Positions 39,792 through 60,507 of a stretch of 64,000 bases of DNA are shown piece after piece. Below the pieces are notes generated by a model. It was not told the origin of the DNA. It searched no databases and saw only the letters and a list, made by a program, of their open reading frames with translations. The DNA is from Lentisphaerota bacterium (GTDB lineage: Bacteria > Verrucomicrobiota > Lentisphaeria > Oligosphaerales > JABHEG01), in contig JABHEG010000218.1 of the NCBI GenBank assembly GCA_018676675.1, forward strand, positions 50,111 to 114,110. The letters are read 5' to 3'. The first letter of the stretch is position 1, and each line of letters opens with the position of its first letter. The translations under genes and the position numbers were made by a program.

Positions 39792-39967
39792 AGCAATCTC
39801 CTTGTCTACAGTGGGTGGACATATGGGATCGAAGGCCACATGATAGTCAGCCCGAATGTACCGCAAAAACGGTGTCTGTCTTGCACGGCGGCCCCCGAGG
39901 CAGCATGCTGTCCGATGTCCACTGTATTCACAGGCTTTGCGGGCACTCCTGCAGGAGGATACAAAAT

Positions 39968-42900
39968 ATGCCACACTCCGCGCTCAATCGGCTCATCCAC
40001 CTGCTGGCTTCGGCAGTCATGGCCTCTACGCTCTGCGCAGAGCCCCCTGCCCTCCTCTCGAATCCGTCATTCGAAGACGGGACAGGAAACGGACCGACCG
40101 GATGGGAACTCACCGGAGAGGGGGAATGGACGACTGGCAGAACAGCGCATGGAACGCGCGCCGTCACGGTGACCGGCGATGGCGAAGGCCAGTGGCGCAG
40201 CAATTCGCTCGATCTCCAGCCTGGTGGGACGTACGAGCTCCGTTTCCGCTGCAGGTACCGGCCAAACGTCCTGTTCGCACCGGCCTATGCGGTCGCCGGC
40301 CCGGAGTTCGCCATCCAGGTGATCCCTCTCGCGGCCGACGAAGCAACGCCGCAATGGAAGCAGCACGTTGTGCGTTTTGTGGTCCCTACGCCTCTCCCAC
40401 CTGCCGCAAGCCGCATCGGTCTCGGGCAGTGGCGGCTGAAGGGCGCGATTGACTATGATGACCTGGAGCTCTATCCCGTCAAACTCGCCCATCGTGTCCA
40501 CGGGGCCACGACTCTCGGTGAAGGTGAGAGTATCACCGGGGGAGCCTACCGCTTCGCCGCCCCGCTCGCCACATGGCGGACGGTGAGCCGGCCCCTCGAT
40601 TCCTACACCGATCGATTCCACGACAACCGGTGGCGCTTCTCAAAGGCAGACGCAACCCTCGTCTATCGTCACCACATCGCCGGGCATCGCCAGACAAAGG
40701 TGTCAATCCAGCCGGAGGTGTGGTTCCATCAGGAGACGAGCTGGGTGCTGCACGTCGAGGTCTCCGCAGATGGCATCGGCTACCGGTCGCTTGGGACGTT
40801 CCACTACGACGGCGACAAACCGACTCTTAGTATCCCGCCGGACATGCTGCCGGCCGAGACAATCTGGGTGCGATTGCGTAACGACGCTTCCGATGGTTCG
40901 ACCCCGGTCTTCTACCAACTCCGGGGGTACGAATACAGCGCCCGCCTCGATGGCCAACCGGTCGAGTTCTCAGGAGTAACGACGTTCGTCACCGTACTGG
41001 GAAGCGATCGCTCTCTCTCAGTGGCCCCGCGGGCTCCCATCCCGGGAGAAGCCGTCTTCGGCCTGGATATCGCCAACAACGGGACAACGGCGGTGTCTCT
41101 CAGCCCTTCCGTGGTGGTTACACACGAATCGGGGAACTCCCGACGCCTCCACGGGCAGAAGCGGACGCTTGCACCGGCTGCCTCCGCCCGAGTGGACATC
41201 CCGTACTCCACGCCACAGCCGGGCACATACTCCCTCACCTGCTCGCTGGGCCCCGCGTTGAAAACGGCCCTGGCCACTGAAACCAGGGTCCCGATCCTTG
41301 AGGCCAACCACTACGGCAAGCGCCTGCCGTCCTCAAACGATGGGGTTGCGCTCTGGTGGGCGTCTTCCGGCTGGAAAGTCAGCCGGACACGGCGACCGCC
41401 TGAGGAGGAAGCATCCGCCATCCACATCAGCGTGGCACGGAACGAGGCCGAGTGTGCTCAACTGGTTGTCCGTCCGGACGTGGAGATCCACAGCCTGAAG
41501 GCCATCGCAGGCGCGTTCCGCACCGCTTCCGGAGACCTTCTGCCGGCGTCTGCCGTCGATCTCCTGCGGGTGCGGTATGTGAATGTTGATTACGTATCCG
41601 ACGCCTTTGGGGCCATCGGTTCCTGGCCTGATCCATTGCCCCCTCTCGGCACCGGTTGCCGCGTCCCCGCCAACCAGAACCAGCCACTGTGGCTCCGCGT
41701 GACTCCCCCCAGGGAAGCCACCCCAGGTGTCTATCGAGGAACGATCACGGTGAACGCTGATGGAGCCAGCACTGACGTCTCTGTGGAGGTCAACGTGTAT
41801 GACTTCGCACTCCCGGACCAGACAAGCTGCCGTTCGCTTTTCGGCTTCTCGTGGAACAACGTCAACCAATACCATCGCCTGACCACCGACGAACAGCGCC
41901 GCACTGTGCTAGACAAATACCTGCGCAGCTTCAGCACACACCGTCTCAGTCCTTACGACCCAGCCCCTCTGGATCACGTCACCTATACCTGGAACACCAA
42001 CCTGGACTGGGAAGGAGGCCGTCTGGACGAAGGCCAGGCCCACTCGGGCAGGAAATCGCTGCTCGCGGAAGACACCAGCGAGACAAGCAATTCCTACGCA
42101 CATCTCAGATCGCTGCTCCCAATTTCCGGCAAACCGCTACGGCTCGGCCTCTGGTATCGTACCTTGGGCTCAAACGAGAGCGCCGCTATCTACATCTGCC
42201 ACTTCGACAGCGCCCGGCAATGGTATAGCGGGAAGAACCGACACATTGACCTCCGGGCAGACACAAACTGGCGAGAGCTAACGAGGACCATCGAGGAGTT
42301 CCCGGAGGGCACAGCCTTCGTACGCCTGATGGCCCACGGCTGCCGCTATTCTGATCCCGGTGAACGCACAGGCAGCGTTTGGGTCGATGACGTGTCACTT
42401 ATCGACACAGACACTGGCGCGGAACTGGTCGTGGACGGCGGCTTCGAGGACGCCAAAGTCATCGGTCCGGAACTCGGTGTCACGTTCGACTGGAAGCGAT
42501 GGGATGGTGCTCTGGACAAAGCAGTCAACGATTACCATTTCAACTCGTTCGTCTTCCGAGTCCCCGGACTCGGAGGCGGCACGTTCTACGCACGCCGCCC
42601 GGGGGAACTGCTCGGCCACGCCCAAGGCACTCCGACACACCGTGCGCTCTTCCAGACGTGGTGCGGGGAAGCCCGCGCACACCTGGAGGCACGTGGACTC
42701 CTCAAACGAGCCGTCTGCTATCCCTTCGATGAACCGGCCGAGAAAGACTACGACTTCGTGGTGGAACAACTCCTATTCCTGAAAGACGGATTCCCGGGAC
42801 TCAGCCGCATGATCCCCATGAATCTCGGCGCGGCCGACGCCTTCCTCGGTTGGGTCGACTACTGGTGCCCCGTTCTCTCTTCACACAACCGCGACTTCGC

Positions 42901-43504
42901 GCGGGAACGTCGGGAGGCCGGCGATCGCTACACCTGGTACATCTGCTGCTCCCCCAAGGCCCCGTACATCGCCAACTTCATCGATCGCGCGGGAACGGAC
43001 CTGCGAGTATGGCTGTGGCAGACCTGGCAAGAAAACGTCGACGGCGTCCTTATCTGGCAGACCAACTACTGGCACAGTCGCCCAGCCTATCCCGATGCGC
43101 TCCAGAACCCTTACGAAGACTCCATGAGCTGGGTCGGCGGATACGGCACGAAGCCCGGCGAAAAGCGCCGCTGGAACGTAGGCGATGGGCGTTTCATCTA
43201 CCCGCCGGAGGCTGCCACTGGATCCCAAATCGAACCAATACTTGATGGCCCCGTCTCAAGTATCCGCTGGGAAGCACTCCGCGATGGGATGGAGGATTTC
43301 GAGTACCTGAGTATGCTGAAGCGGTTGCTGGCCCGGAAACGCCAGTCCCTGAGTTCTGAAGAGGCCCGGCAATGCCAGGCATTGCTCACAGTTCCTGCAG
43401 AGATCTCGGAATCGCTGACCTCTTACACCCGGGATCCTGGCCCCATCGAGGCTCGCCGCCGGGAGTTGGCCCAAGCCATCGAGGCACTAGTGTGCCGTCC
43501 CTGA
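39968..43504 (+). CDS. Secreted glycoside hydrolase 123 / DUF4091-like protein
   Basis: Signal peptide; LLSNPSFEDGTGNGPTGW carbohydrate-binding-type start; AVCYPFDEPAEKDYDF, WLWQTWQENVDGVLIWQTNYW, SIRWEALRDGMEDFEYL typical of DUF4091. GGAGG before the ATG at 39968. Confidence 0.8.
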   Translation: MPHSALNRLIHLLASAVMASTLCAEPPALLSNPSFEDGTGNGPTGWELTGEGEWTTGRTAHGTRAVTVTGDGEGQWRSNSLDLQPGGTYELRFRCRYRPNVLFAPAYAVAGPEFAIQVIPLAADEATPQWKQHVVRFVVPTPLPPAASRIGLGQWRLKGAIDYDDLELYPVKLAHRVHGATTLGEGESITGGAYRFAAPLATWRTVSRPLDSYTDRFHDNRWRFSKADATLVYRHHIAGHRQTKVSIQPEVWFHQETSWVLHVEVSADGIGYRSLGTFHYDGDKPTLSIPPDMLPAETIWVRLRNDASDGSTPVFYQLRGYEYSARLDGQPVEFSGVTTFVTVLGSDRSLSVAPRAPIPGEAVFGLDIANNGTTAVSLSPSVVVTHESGNSRRLHGQKRTLAPAASARVDIPYSTPQPGTYSLTCSLGPALKTALATETRVPILEANHYGKRLPSSNDGVALWWASSGWKVSRTRRPPEEEASAIHISVARNEAECAQLVVRPDVEIHSLKAIAGAFRTASGDLLPASAVDLLRVRYVNVDYVSDAFGAIGSWPDPLPPLGTGCRVPANQNQPLWLRVTPPREATPGVYRGTITVNADGASTDVSVEVNVYDFALPDQTSCRSLFGFSWNNVNQYHRLTTDEQRRTVLDKYLRSFSTHRLSPYDPAPLDHVTYTWNTNLDWEGGRLDEGQAHSGRKSLLAEDTSETSNSYAHLRSLLPISGKPLRLGLWYRTLGSNESAAIYICHFDSARQWYSGKNRHIDLRADTNWRELTRTIEEFPEGTAFVRLMAHGCRYSDPGERTGSVWVDDVSLIDTDTGAELVVDGGFEDAKVIGPELGVTFDWKRWDGALDKAVNDYHFNSFVFRVPGLGGGTFYARRPGELLGHAQGTPTHRALFQTWCGEARAHLEARGLLKRAVCYPFDEPAEKDYDFVVEQLLFLKDGFPGLSRMIPMNLGAADAFLGWVDYWCPVLSSHNRDFARERREAGDRYTWYICCSPKAPYIANFIDRAGTDLRVWLWQTWQENVDGVLIWQTNYWHSRPAYPDALQNPYEDSMSWVGGYGTKPGEKRRWNVGDGRFIYPPEAATGSQIEPILDGPVSSIRWEALRDGMEDFEYLSMLKRLLARKRQSLSSEEARQCQALLTVPAEISESLTSYTRDPGPIEARRRELAQAIEALVCRP

Positions 43505-43769
43505 AGTAATGGTGCACGAACGTCGGCCATTCGGGTCGCTTCAGGTGCATCTCCGGGCGTAAGTCGATGCTGAGCCATCGTCGTCGCCCGGCGATGTCGA
43601 CTGAGCGCCAGAAGGGTCACGCCCCAAAGGGGTTTCGCGCTCTTGGCGCAGGCGACACCCCGCCGGGGTCGGGAGTTATCCTCCGGATAGCCCCGCTCCC
43701 CCGGTGGAGCGCCTCTGCATCCAAGACAGCTGCAATTCGTGCTTCATTACTTGCGGGACGGCACACTAG
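43487..43769. mobile_element. MITE-like element with ~34-bp imperfect terminal inverted repeats and multiple internal hairpins
   Basis: Left ctagtgtgccgtccctgaagtaatggtgcacgaa; right end reverse-complemented ctagtgtgccgtcccgcaagtaatgaagcacgaa. Internal palindromes accccgccggggt, gcgctcttggcgc, ccccaaagggg, gctcccccggtggagc. Confidence 0.7.
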
Positions 43770-43898: not shown

Positions 43899-45764
43899 TT
43901 ACTCGCCCAACCCCACTCCTTCGGCCGCATGCAGTCTCAGCAGTGCCTCAAGGAACGTGGCCCGTTCACGCAGTCGCCACCAGTCGGGACAACGGACACC
44001 TGCCAGGGCATCACACTCCCGGTCCGCAAGCTCACGTGCCCACTCAAGAAACCGCCCTGCCTCCACGCCCCTCTTCGCCAACAACAAGCACAGTTTGATG
44101 TATTGCCCAGTTGCTCGAAAGGTCCAGCGTCCTTCGGGCGTGAAAGCACCGTCCAGCTTCCGGCTCTCGTCCAACGCATCCCCGGCGACGGCAGACAACC
44201 TGTCAAACAAGTCAGATGGAGGACACTCCATGAGCGTTGCGGCCTGCCCCAGCTGGAACGGAATGTCCGTCCCCGCACAGTGCTCGTAGTAGTTTGGGTG
44301 CCGGTAAAGGCCCGCCCCGATGTAAACCTGTACCTGGGCCATCTCAGGGGCTTCGTCCACGGCTTCCGCTTTCTCCGCTTCGCTGGCGAAACAGTACCGA
44401 GCCGTCCCCTGCCAGGGCCTTCCGTCAAGCTCGAGATGCTCGCGGAAAATGCGCGCTTCGGGATCATAGGAAAACGTCGCCACACCGAGAGCCAGTCGGG
44501 ACGCCATCTGTTCGAGCTGCTGCGACAAAGTCTCACCCCCGCTGCTCTGCCGCAGCTCCTCAACAGCCTGCATCCAGGATACAGCAGTCAGAGCAGCACC
44601 ACGTGTTTCTACCCATTGTCCTGGCGGTTGATCCTCCCCTGGCGCATACCCCACGGCCCCAAAGAAATTGGGGATGAGCCCTGATTCGGGGTGCTGAACC
44701 GCCTCCCACTTGTCCGCCATCCTCTGAGCCCAGTCGAGACAGTCAGAATCGCCCGTGCGGCGCCAGCACGAACACCACCAATGAATCATGCGTCCACCCG
44801 CCGTATCGAAAGCACAGTGGCTGGGTGTCTTGACCAGGCTGTGCACCCCCGCACGATCGTCAAAACCGTATTCGCAGAAACGGTTGTAGTCGAAGTTCTC
44901 CGGGTCGGTGATCAAGCCGTAAAACATCGCTCGGAAGCAACGGTGAAGCTGCCTGGGCATGTAAGGCCACACTCGATCCAGGCACAGCTCCGGGCAGTTC
45001 CCCGAGTTCAACGGTTTGAACTTCGGGACGTCAGTCGCCCCCTTGCTGTGCGCCTCCCCCGTCCGGACGTCAAAGTCACATTCCTGGCTCAGAAACATCA
45101 GTCCGGAACGCGAATCAAAACCATGTTCAGCGACAATCTCAAGCATCTTGTCGACGAGTTTCCGATAAACCGGCCTCCCGGTTGCCTCGCTGAGCAGATC
45201 AAGAATCGGCCACAGCTCACGGTCGGCTCGGAACGTCTCATATTCGAAAGGCCGCTCAGGGAACCAGTAGGTTCGGTAGACGCCATTCTCCCGGTGGCCC
45301 AACGAGCGGTAGCCAAGCGTGACCGGCCGGGTCACTGTCACAAACGGGACACCATCGGGAGCATCAAGAAAACGCCGGGCCTGCTGCGCCAGGATGGCGT
45401 CCACAGCCTGCGTCACGACGTCCAAGTAGCCGGCAGCAGGCCGCCCGCTGCTCTTTCCCCTTGTCCCGAGTGCAACCGTGACACAGATGGAGGGAAGACA
45501 GCCATCGACCGTTAAGTCGTAGTATCCCGGGGCCAAATCACCCACGGGAATCGCGAAAGACTGGTCGCTCTCTTCCTCCGACTCAAATGGCAGTAACGCA
45601 TACTCCCAGACCACGGTGGGACGTTCCTTGCCGCGAAGGCTCAAGGACATGCTCCGGTCCGACTCACCCAAGCCACGCACCACCCCGTGCAGTTCCTTAC
45701 GGCCATCGAGTACAAAGTAGGTGTCGAGCTCAAGTGCGATCCTGCCTGCAGTCTCTCCTGACAT
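43899..45764 (-). CDS. Putative (alpha/alpha) six-hairpin-type glycosidase or lyase, function unassigned
   Basis: Long ORF with W-rich helical segments (DRELWPILDLLSEATGRPVYRKLVDKMLEIVAEHGFD; GGRMIHWWCSCWRRTGDSDCLDWAQRMADKWEAVQH). Fold-level assignment only. Confidence 0.5.
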   Translation of the reverse strand: MSGETAGRIALELDTYFVLDGRKELHGVVRGLGESDRSMSLSLRGKERPTVVWEYALLPFESEEESDQSFAIPVGDLAPGYYDLTVDGCLPSICVTVALGTRGKSSGRPAAGYLDVVTQAVDAILAQQARRFLDAPDGVPFVTVTRPVTLGYRSLGHRENGVYRTYWFPERPFEYETFRADRELWPILDLLSEATGRPVYRKLVDKMLEIVAEHGFDSRSGLMFLSQECDFDVRTGEAHSKGATDVPKFKPLNSGNCPELCLDRVWPYMPRQLHRCFRAMFYGLITDPENFDYNRFCEYGFDDRAGVHSLVKTPSHCAFDTAGGRMIHWWCSCWRRTGDSDCLDWAQRMADKWEAVQHPESGLIPNFFGAVGYAPGEDQPPGQWVETRGAALTAVSWMQAVEELRQSSGGETLSQQLEQMASRLALGVATFSYDPEARIFREHLELDGRPWQGTARYCFASEAEKAEAVDEAPEMAQVQVYIGAGLYRHPNYYEHCAGTDIPFQLGQAATLMECPPSDLFDRLSAVAGDALDESRKLDGAFTPEGRWTFRATGQYIKLCLLLAKRGVEAGRFLEWARELADRECDALAGVRCPDWWRLRERATFLEALLRLHAAEGVGLGE

Positions 45765-45796
45765 GGTCCAACTCCCCGTTGCCGCCGTCCGAACGC

Positions 45797-47473
45797 TCAC
45801 TTCGTTCCTGGCAGAGGCCAATGCGTGCCCGCCACGTGAGTAACATTCTCATTGTCGTTGATGTAGTAAAGCGTGAAGACATCTCCGTCCGTCTTCTGCG
45901 CGGAGATCGGGTAGCCATTGTCCCCACCGTTTCCAGTCCCGTCGGCTCGGACAATGATCTCATTCTTCAAGTCCCACGTGTGTCCGCCATCAGCACTGAC
46001 CAACGCCCGCACCCCCATGGCATCACGGCGATACCCACGACTCCAGAGCAGCCGACCGTCTCTGAGCAAGAGTACGTGGCTCGGATAGCCCCAGGCACCG
46101 GTGTCCTCCGGGGGCCCCCAGGTCTTCCCCCCGTCTGACGAGAAGCACTGGAACGTGTTCATGGCCCCATCCTTCGGGCGCATCATAGCTACCATCTCGC
46201 CCTGTCCGTTGGCGCAAACTGCCGTCTCATTGAACCCCAGCCCTATCGACCGCGGCGCGGCGATCTGGACCACGTCCCACGTTTCTCCGTCGTCCTCGGA
46301 GCGAATCCCCCAAACACCCGAACGCCCTTTCGGGGATTCGCTACCGTAAATCGCTGTCAACCATACCTTCCCGAGCCGAAGGAATGAACAGCTCTGGTGG
46401 AAACTCATGACCCCTGCGGGAGCAGGACACGGCAGCTCGAGAACACGTGACGTCGTGCCATCCGGATGTCTGAATCGAACGCGTGGATCCCCCAGGTAGG
46501 CCACCGTTCCCTTGCGAACACTCATCCAACGACGGCCCCGCTCCCGAATCGCCGGAAGCTCGGCCTCATCGACGTAGACCCACCCGCGCGCATGAGGATT
46601 GATAGCGGTGCCGTCCTCTCGCACCATGCGCGGATCCGGTAGGAGCTCACTCGATCGAGCCCACGTCAGCCCTTCGTCGTTGGATACATACCGTGCAGAG
46701 CCCCCGGTGTTGTCGATGTGCGAACGCCGCGAACGCGTCCCGAAACTGGTGATCCAACGCCCATCGGGAAGGACCTTGAGATTCGGGAAGCAGGCGTATA
46801 CGCCCTCACGTCGGTAGATGATGACATTGTTCGCCCCCTCTACCTGTTCAGCTGCCACGATCGCCGATGCGAAGCGCACATCCTTCCAGTAGGCCTCTCC
46901 CGTTGCCGCGCTGGAGATCGAGCCAAACATGACAGTTCGGCGCCCATTGTGTGCCGGCTTGATAAAGCTGCCCCATCCGTCAATTGCCAACTTGCCATCC
47001 ACCCAGACCTCGATATTGATCCCGGCAAACCGAATCAAGTAGGTGTGAAACGTATCGGTAGTGTCCATCGCGTACTCGAGATCGCTGCCCGCCAGACGGA
47101 TCCGGTCCGGATAGAACGTGACACTGTCCTCGTGCGTTCCGTCAGAAACGTGCAGGCACATCCCTGATCGCCCAGTACATGAGATGAGCCGCAGAGTCGC
47201 CTGCGCTGCCCCTCCCCGTTCCGCCCGGGCCGACCAACTCCGACTGAAACAGTGCAGTTGGGTGGTGCGTGTCCCCCCGTCGACGATGTGCAGTCCGTCC
47301 GGCGTCAGTTCAGACCGTGTTTCCGCTCCTTTGCTGGTCCCCCAGCCACACGCGTCCGGCAACACATCAGCCGAGTAGACGCGCGTCCACGCGATCCCGG
47401 GCCCAACCGGTTCGGCCCGGATGGCCCCGACTGCAGCAAACACGAACGCCGCAAGCACACCACGAGTTACCAT
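45797..47473 (-). CDS. Secreted sialidase-like (BNR) protein
   Basis: Signal peptide MVTRGVLAAFVFAAVGAIRA; BNR-like blocks ARYVSNDEGLTWA, IRSEDDGETWDVVQ, CFSSDGGKTWGPPE, LVSADGGHTWDLK. Confidence 0.82.
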   Translation of the reverse strand: MVTRGVLAAFVFAAVGAIRAEPVGPGIAWTRVYSADVLPDACGWGTSKGAETRSELTPDGLHIVDGGTRTTQLHCFSRSWSARAERGGAAQATLRLISCTGRSGMCLHVSDGTHEDSVTFYPDRIRLAGSDLEYAMDTTDTFHTYLIRFAGINIEVWVDGKLAIDGWGSFIKPAHNGRRTVMFGSISSAATGEAYWKDVRFASAIVAAEQVEGANNVIIYRREGVYACFPNLKVLPDGRWITSFGTRSRRSHIDNTGGSARYVSNDEGLTWARSSELLPDPRMVREDGTAINPHARGWVYVDEAELPAIRERGRRWMSVRKGTVAYLGDPRVRFRHPDGTTSRVLELPCPAPAGVMSFHQSCSFLRLGKVWLTAIYGSESPKGRSGVWGIRSEDDGETWDVVQIAAPRSIGLGFNETAVCANGQGEMVAMMRPKDGAMNTFQCFSSDGGKTWGPPEDTGAWGYPSHVLLLRDGRLLWSRGYRRDAMGVRALVSADGGHTWDLKNEIIVRADGTGNGGDNGYPISAQKTDGDVFTLYYINDNENVTHVAGTHWPLPGTK

Positions 47474-59122: not shown

Positions 59123-60507
59123 TCCCCAACTCTCCTTCTAACTAGCGCACAGAACTCTCGTCCACGATCGGCATAATCGGAAAACATGTCGTGACTAGCG
59201 CACCCCGGTGAGAGCAAAACCGTGTCCCCGGAGTCAGCGCTGTCAAGAGCAGCATCGACTGCCGCTGCAAGCGATACAAACATCTTACAAGATACCACGT
59301 GATTCCATTGTTTCGCCAGTCGCTCGCGGCATCTTCCGACTAGAAAAACGTCCTTTACGTGTCGAGCGACCACCGGGGCTTGAGAATCGAAATCCTGCCC
59401 CTTCGCCACACCACCCGCAATCAAGAGGATTCCGCCCGCCCCTCCCTGCTCGGCGCACGTCAGGATGGCCTTTGCCATGGCGTCGGCATTCGTGGCTTTC
59501 GAATCATTGATAATCCGGATCCCGCGATGGACGGTCACAAGCTCAAGTCGATGAGCGCTGGGTACAAATGTCCGCAGATGCGGGACCAGCTCCGCGGGGG
59601 CAATGCCGGCGATCTTTGCCAGCGCCAGCGCCGCAAGAACATTCGCCGCGTTGTGCCGCCCGCTCAGCCTGAGGGCAGCTTGGTCAAGCAACGCCACGCA
59701 CGTTCCCTCAACCCGCTCGTAGAGCACACCATCGTCTCCCAGAAAAAAATCTGCGACCAGACTCTCGCTGGGAGCGAACAGGATAGGAATCGCGTCATCA
59801 CACTGACAGCTGTCCTGGAACTCCGGCGTGCCGGTCAGATCCTCGCAAATGACAAGGTCGCGGGGCGAATTCAGCGCCGTGGCCAACCGGAACTTCGTCT
59901 GTCGATAGGCCGAAAAGGAAGGGTACCTGTCCAAGTGGTCAGGGGTCACGTTCAGAATGGCCCCGGCCAGCGGCGCGAAGTCTACAATATGCTCAAGCTG
60001 GAAGCTGCTGACCTCGACGATGAGAAAGTCCAGATCGGACGAACGGGCGGCCGCATCGGACAGTGGGCGGCCCGTATTCCCCGCGGCAAGAACCGAGTAT
60101 CCCGCATGTGTGAGGACATGAACGAGAAGCTCGACCGTCGTGGTCTTCCCATTCGTCCCAGTGACGGCAAGTATCGGGCAGGAACAGTACCGGTACCCGT
60201 ACTCAATCTCCCCCACAACCGGACAAGAACTGCTCTGCGCGATCCGCCCCAGGAAACTGTCCGGAGGAATGCCGGGACTGATCACCACCAACTCCGGTGC
60301 CACCTCACTCCACGTGTCCTCGTTCCACTCAAGCCGGGTGTCCACACCCCGCCGCCGCAGTTGTTCTCCGCGATCTCGCAGTTCAGGGGAACCACCCTCG
60401 TCCAGTACGGTCACAGCAGCGCCCCGAGATGCCGCCAGTTCGGCTGCGGCAAAACCACTCTTCCCCAGCCCCAGCACCAGAATCTGCTCTTGACTCTCGC
60501 TCGTCAC
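59119..60507 (-). CDS. murD: UDP-N-acetylmuramoylalanine--D-glutamate ligase
   Basis: ILVLGLGKSGFAAAELAASRGAAVTVLDEG...VVISPGIPPDS...ILAVTGTNGKTTTVELL...EVSSFQLEHI...LNVTPDHLDRY...INDSKATNADA...LLSPGCASHDMFSDYADRGREF. GTG start at 60507 inferred. Confidence 0.95.
   Translation of the reverse strand: MTSESQEQILVLGLGKSGFAAAELAASRGAAVTVLDEGGSPELRDRGEQLRRRGVDTRLEWNEDTWSEVAPELVVISPGIPPDSFLGRIAQSSSCPVVGEIEYGYRYCSCPILAVTGTNGKTTTVELLVHVLTHAGYSVLAAGNTGRPLSDAAARSSDLDFLIVEVSSFQLEHIVDFAPLAGAILNVTPDHLDRYPSFSAYRQTKFRLATALNSPRDLVICEDLTGTPEFQDSCQCDDAIPILFAPSESLVADFFLGDDGVLYERVEGTCVALLDQAALRLSGRHNAANVLAALALAKIAGIAPAELVPHLRTFVPSAHRLELVTVHRGIRIINDSKATNADAMAKAILTCAEQGGAGGILLIAGGVAKGQDFDSQAPVVARHVKDVFLVGRCRERLAKQWNHVVSCKMFVSLAAAVDAALDSADSGDTVLLSPGCASHDMFSDYADRGREFCALVRRRVGE

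Follow-up and report, generated by a model that had tools for sequence, protein, structure and literature searches.

A 283-bp, hairpin-rich segment lies at the 3' end of a GH123-type gene in the 64-kb stretch of DNA analysed here (the window), and the preliminary description called it MITE-like. Whether it is a mobile element, where it came from and why its interior is so highly folded are the questions raised by this locus. Its features are listed below; the conserved motifs of the element are read on the minus strand.

39815–43504, plus strand: GH123-type gene, the last four codons and the stop from the element
43488–43768, minus strand: whole element, including both target TAs
43487–43520, plus strand: left terminal inverted repeat, 30/34 against the right terminus; gives the upstream gene its codons V-C-R-P-stop
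43736–43769, minus strand: right terminal inverted repeat, 30/34 against the left terminus
43488–43489, no strand: left TA target-site copy, within CTAG 43487–43490
43767–43768, no strand: right TA target-site copy, within CTAG 43766–43769
43633–43735, minus strand: arm A hairpin of the cloverleaf, helices 3–5 of the alignment
43622–43632, minus strand: junction mini-hairpin CCCC-TTT-GGGG, with covariation between elements
43521–43621, minus strand: arm C hairpin with covarying stems; model R1 matches 43520–43648 with 135.7 bits
43560–43584, minus strand: sequence-conserved arm C tip, ACGACGATG-N4-AGCATCGMCTT, near-invariant in 72 non-redundant elements

The element, its insertion site and its copies

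The interval 43487–43769 first assigned to the element equals 43488–43768 plus the outermost base of CTAG at each end, C on the left and G on the right. Its termini are near-identical over about 34 bp, as described, and they are the only inverted 34-mer pair with at least 27 matches when all pairs spanning 100–500 bp are compared over the whole window. CTAG is depleted about five-fold in the window, with 18 occurrences observed and 98 expected, and two of the 18 are the ends of the element. Despite this depletion, three CTAG occur within 200 bp at 59142–59343. The element contains no transposase ORF.

The gene at 39815–43504, which specifies an enzyme of sugar degradation, encodes a GH123 catalytic domain (PF13320), which we take to be the former DUF4091, the name first given to it. 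The element sits between this gene and a convergent gene at 43899–45821 on the minus strand. The reading frame stops inside the left terminus, which confirms that its final V-C-R-P-stop is element-derived. When the flanks are joined with a single TA between them, the frame stays open and ends in ...IEALAKRE-stop, compared with ...EALVCRP-stop in the presence of the element; therefore, the insertion swapped A-K-R-E for V-C-R-P. The predicted element-free allele, built from the joined flanks of one genome, is GAGGCACTAGCCAAACGGGAATAG. The element would thus have entered the TA of a CTAG near the gene end, with duplication of the TA and replacement of the last four codons.

A location at gene ends is not peculiar to this copy. 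Eleven of the 52 insertion sites examined are traversed by an ORF of 360 nt or more; the TA is inside the stop codon in seven of the 11 and at most 30 nt before the stop in two, including the GH123-type gene. Most elements begin with TAG, and therefore insertions at stop codons rebuild a stop. The rare CTAG at stop codons, together with selection against gene disruption, explain the gene-end location without a special function.

The preliminary description had named a single copy with no related termini elsewhere as contrary to a mobile element. That condition does not hold. The same 14.1-Mb assembly harbors two further full copies, 98% and 97% identical, and one internally deleted copy of 170 bp. 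About eight diverged copies were recovered in this genome by the initial copy search, which holds about 20 diverged relatives overall. The flanks of the copies are unrelated, and their ends are sharp at TA. The 170-bp copy (contig C114, 52855–53024) belongs to the window's subfamily; its mini-hairpin and large parts of both arms are gone with the termini intact, making it a natural internal-deletion product. The diverged copies are complete elements of 282–283 bp, with two of 331–335 bp; they have the same predicted fold and different terminal repeats, for instance CTAGTGGTCTGAGTTACTAATCC, TTAGTGTGCTGATTGG and CTAGTGTGGTGACACGC. Over about 55 elements with recognised ends, a few of these end assignments being weak, the lengths are mostly 267–287 bp, with a group of 330–380 bp and one element of 1,323 bp.

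Many related elements have TA-bounded inverted termini, in agreement with the TA duplication first suggested from the CTAG at both ends. TA is constant among them. In the CTAG group a G lies just inside the left TA and a C just inside the right TA, and the bases outside vary. With the inner G and C fixed and the outer bases variable, TA is probably the duplicated target, with a preference for CTAG. Duplication of the 4-bp CTAG is ruled out by TTAG...CTAG and CTAG...CTAA pairs, which are oriented as a TA with fixed inner G/C predicts. A preference of IS630 for CTAG is attributed to Tenzen and Ohtsubo (1991) in PMC2170065. For two core-bearing elements (L085 and L180), the best terminal-repeat match gives GTAC, not CTAG, contexts.

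A covariance model built from the mini-hairpin and arm C matches 28 places in the window's genome. Matches occur in 23 of 198 Lentisphaeria genomes, often with many copies in each, and in three genomes outside Lentisphaeria among 388 of the phylum. Two genomes outside the class, G207 and G301, carry a version of roughly 330 bp with terminal repeats agreeing at 27–30 of 30 positions and mostly CTAG ends. The named records that contain the tip motif come overwhelmingly from Lentisphaeria or from MAGs of this class; the motif scan gave three genome matches outside Lentisphaeria, weak at 15–21 bits. Phages and plasmids were rejected as carriers, their records being without a match, and viral carriers were rejected as well, the four motif matches scoring 18–20 bits over 25 positions. 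No description of a cloverleaf element family was found in the open-access literature, and the family is apparently undescribed.

Three further observations concern individual genomes. In the genome G074, at least six copies (among loci L079, L099 and L182–L193) have identical model scores and nearly identical termini, which suggests a recent burst of transposition. At the start of three contigs of the assembly G000 (C337, C338 and C339, position 6–104 in each) lies an identical portion of a core-bearing element; the assembly thus seems to break at the repeat, and copy numbers from drafts are probably underestimates. The genome G337, of the same phylum, contains elements of 182, 274 and 313 bp (L233–L236 and L242–L271) whose terminal repeat is GGGCACTTCGATTAACC and whose target duplications measure 4 bp (TTTA, TAAA, TCTA, CATA and others), a non-TA transposase type; they match the core model weakly, at 34–39 bits, and lack the tip motif.

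An IS630-type relative and a proposed origin of the 283-bp form

The 1,323-bp element, L039, is located on contig C114 of the same genome; its termini end in CTAG and extend over 30 bp or more. Its gene is broken; it matches DDE_3 and, weakly, HTH_32, and by these domain matches is an IS630-type transposase gene. The right end of L039 scores 43 bits with the model (arm C), and the left end contains arm A. The transposase gene is flanked by GGTAACCCGAAGGGCGGG and GGCAACCCTTCGGGCGGG, which are direct repeats of the form GGYAACCC...GGGCGGG. The termini (CTAGTG...) are related, not identical, to those of the 283-bp subfamily, and the inner arms are common to both. In five elements of 344–380 bp (L071, L074, L088, L209 and L226), a short spacer separates two mini-hairpins; elements of 283 bp contain a single mini-hairpin.

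The preliminary description suggested looking for an autonomous IS with matching termini. L039 is of IS630 type with related CTAG termini and the same arms, but no intact transposase with the termini of the 283-bp subfamily was found. Searches with the L039 protein over the class and the phylum, and with DDE_3 over 23 genomes, recovered only the broken gene of L039, a single element, between arms. The dispersed copies, the TA-bounded termini and this IS630-type relative support the first assignment to the MITEs.

From this anatomy, the 283-bp form looks like an internal-deletion product of an L039-like element, and a simplest path is proposed. The left end of the ancestral IS630-type element would comprise the terminal repeat, arm A and a mini-hairpin, and the right end a mini-hairpin, arm C and the terminal repeat. 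Deletion between the direct repeats of the mini-hairpins would remove the transposase gene and join the two ends into the 283-bp cloverleaf.

IS630 elements without arms occur in the same genomes; IS630 transposition in general thus does not require the arms, which are an addition to it. One of these arm-less elements, L149 of G125, has the terminal repeat TACCGTTTTGCAATCATTTAG, which resembles at 15 of 20 positions the TACCGATTCGCAATCTTAAAG termini of core-bearing MITEs in that genome; it is a candidate partner transposase for them.

The cloverleaf interior and the upkeep of its arms

Folding of both strands, as recommended earlier, gave structures far more stable than those of shuffles (z = -9.6 and -9.5, one per strand). 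The hairpin richness is therefore borne out, but what was called several nested palindromes is actually one ordered cloverleaf. An alignment of 14 elements from three genomes yields one common four-way structure of terminal stem, arm A, mini-hairpin and arm C. Compensatory changes were found in 61 of its 92 pairs, including 18 of 24 in the main stem of arm A and 11 of 12 in the middle stem of arm C. The compensated cells number 240, compared with 73.7 ± 6.9 in shuffles, and the covariation score is 0.547, compared with 0.197 for shuffled alignments and 0.08–0.12 with slid partners. Covariation of the terminal stem is expected for any transposon whose ends are inverted, but the arms, which do not belong to the terminal repeats, covary as well. 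The interior is a conserved covarying structure common to elements with different terminal repeats, a feature absent from the preliminary description. Global alignment was uninformative for comparing terminal-repeat and core identity, shuffled cores performing equally, and covariance-model scores were used instead.

The tip stem of arm C and its loop flanks, CGACGATG....CATCGCCTT, are almost invariant, with pairs 33–36 the same in 66–70 of the 72 non-redundant sequences. The exceptions are one divergent group and L039, which carry CGATAT....ATATCG. An asymmetric loop that is never paired, ACGA opposite CCTT, persists across genera.

Covariation, however strong, is not in itself proof of an RNA. 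A structured RNA made from one strand should strongly favour G·U over A·C. On the motif strand, the mispairs over all sequences comprise 107 G·T and 97 A·C, those in the subfamily consensuses 23 and 16, and those in the terminal repeats 38 and 44. The near equality indicates that the constraint acts on both strands, and the absence of a wobble excess in the first two counts speaks against an RNA acting on one strand and in favour of folded DNA. A known RNA family was rejected as well, the Rfam 15 covariance models giving no match. Constraint on two strands may come from DNA hairpins or cruciforms, from RNA of both orientations, or from replication template switching that repairs palindromes. 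That the tip is conserved while its stem changes freely points to recognition of the folded form, and the invariant tip with the persistently unpaired asymmetric loop argues against pure self-correction.

The element is probably a non-autonomous MITE of the IS630/Tc1-mariner type that arose by deletion, is mobilised in trans and keeps its arms as DNA hairpins. Mobilisation by IS630-type transposases is inferred because the termini and the target fit. Each arm would be kept as a self-complementary DNA hairpin. Most likely the hairpin, extruded or single-stranded and with the conserved tip, either is recognised by the transposase or a host protein or helps to bring the two element ends together.

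The same MITE might instead possess stems that correct themselves, replication template switching in imperfect palindromes copying one side of a stem onto the other and leaving "compensatory" changes without function. Such a process agrees with a constraint that is equal for the two strands. It occurs preferentially at long palindromes and was proposed to create and maintain hairpin stems (PMC8794818). However, correction would tend to pair or invert the tip and the ACGA/CCTT loop, both of which persist across genera, and the same arm order is found in different genera and outside the class. We consider this explanation rather unlikely.

It is unlikely, too, that the cloverleaf core is an independent mobile module, a folded DNA structure known by its conserved hairpin tips and re-attached to the termini of different transposase families. 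The CTAG/TA types and the GGGCACTTCGATTAACC elements with 4-bp duplications would be its examples, and selection would then favour the core for a function not tied to a particular transposase.

That the structure of the MITE acts as RNA in read-through transcripts of neighbouring genes, stabilising or terminating them or offering a site to RNase III, whichever way the element is oriented, as was suggested for Correia/NEMIS, appears quite doubtful. The frequent gene-end location and the very stable fold of both strands are consistent with such a role, and RNase III has been proposed to target the RNA hairpins of NEMIS (PMC2229807); nevertheless, G·U does not exceed A·C on either strand, Rfam gives no match, and the gene-end location is accounted for by CTAG/TAG targets and selection against disruption. 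The hairpins between convergent genes might suggest an immobile structure, inherited vertically, that regulates or terminates the GH123-type gene; this is refuted by the 97–98% identical copies at unrelated loci with abrupt TA ends, and the in-frame reconstructed empty site also speaks against it.

Comparison with known elements

We conclude that the element is probably an IS630-type MITE but belongs to a structured family. RUP of Streptococcus pneumoniae, a MITE of 107 bp for which mobilisation by IS630-Spn1 has been proposed (PMC2229807), is likewise a short non-autonomous repeat with TA ends and termini related to an IS630-type element. The terminal repeats of RUP measure 9 bp, and neither further structure nor function motifs are reported for it (PMC2229807), whereas the present element has 283 bp, repeats of about 34 bp and an ordered cloverleaf covarying across genera. 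Correia/NEMIS and ERIC/RU-1 are also TA-ended small mobile repeats with stable stem-loops, and a role in mRNA processing was proposed for NEMIS RNA; they are described, however, as a single long stem-loop of two ends with no four-way junction, and their parent transposase is not identified in that review (PMC2229807). The CIR repeats of Caulobacter and Brucella have two hairpin arms with a motif exposed at one loop, but they lack terminal inverted repeats and the exposed motif is a GANTC methylation site (PMC2229807). The present element has IS630-type termini and the tip CGACGATG....CATCGCCTT; its terminal repeats and different arm C tip motif exclude a CIR repeat.

The likeness to IS630/ISY100 (Tc1/mariner) extends to the probable TA duplication, the CTAG preference of IS630, the inverted termini and the DDE_3 domain in the presumed parent L039. 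It differs in that the element has no transposase, and the ordinary IS630 elements of these genomes have no hairpin arms.

The usual picture of a bacterial MITE is one hairpin between short repeats, with scant evidence for selection on the inside. In the cloverleaf family, compensatory changes number in the dozens across genera, the two strands are equally constrained and the tip is conserved. This makes testable whether a DNA transposon uses folded DNA inside its ends. For one MITE family there is also a covariance model together with a likely parent IS, and deletion between direct repeats is a plausible route of birth.
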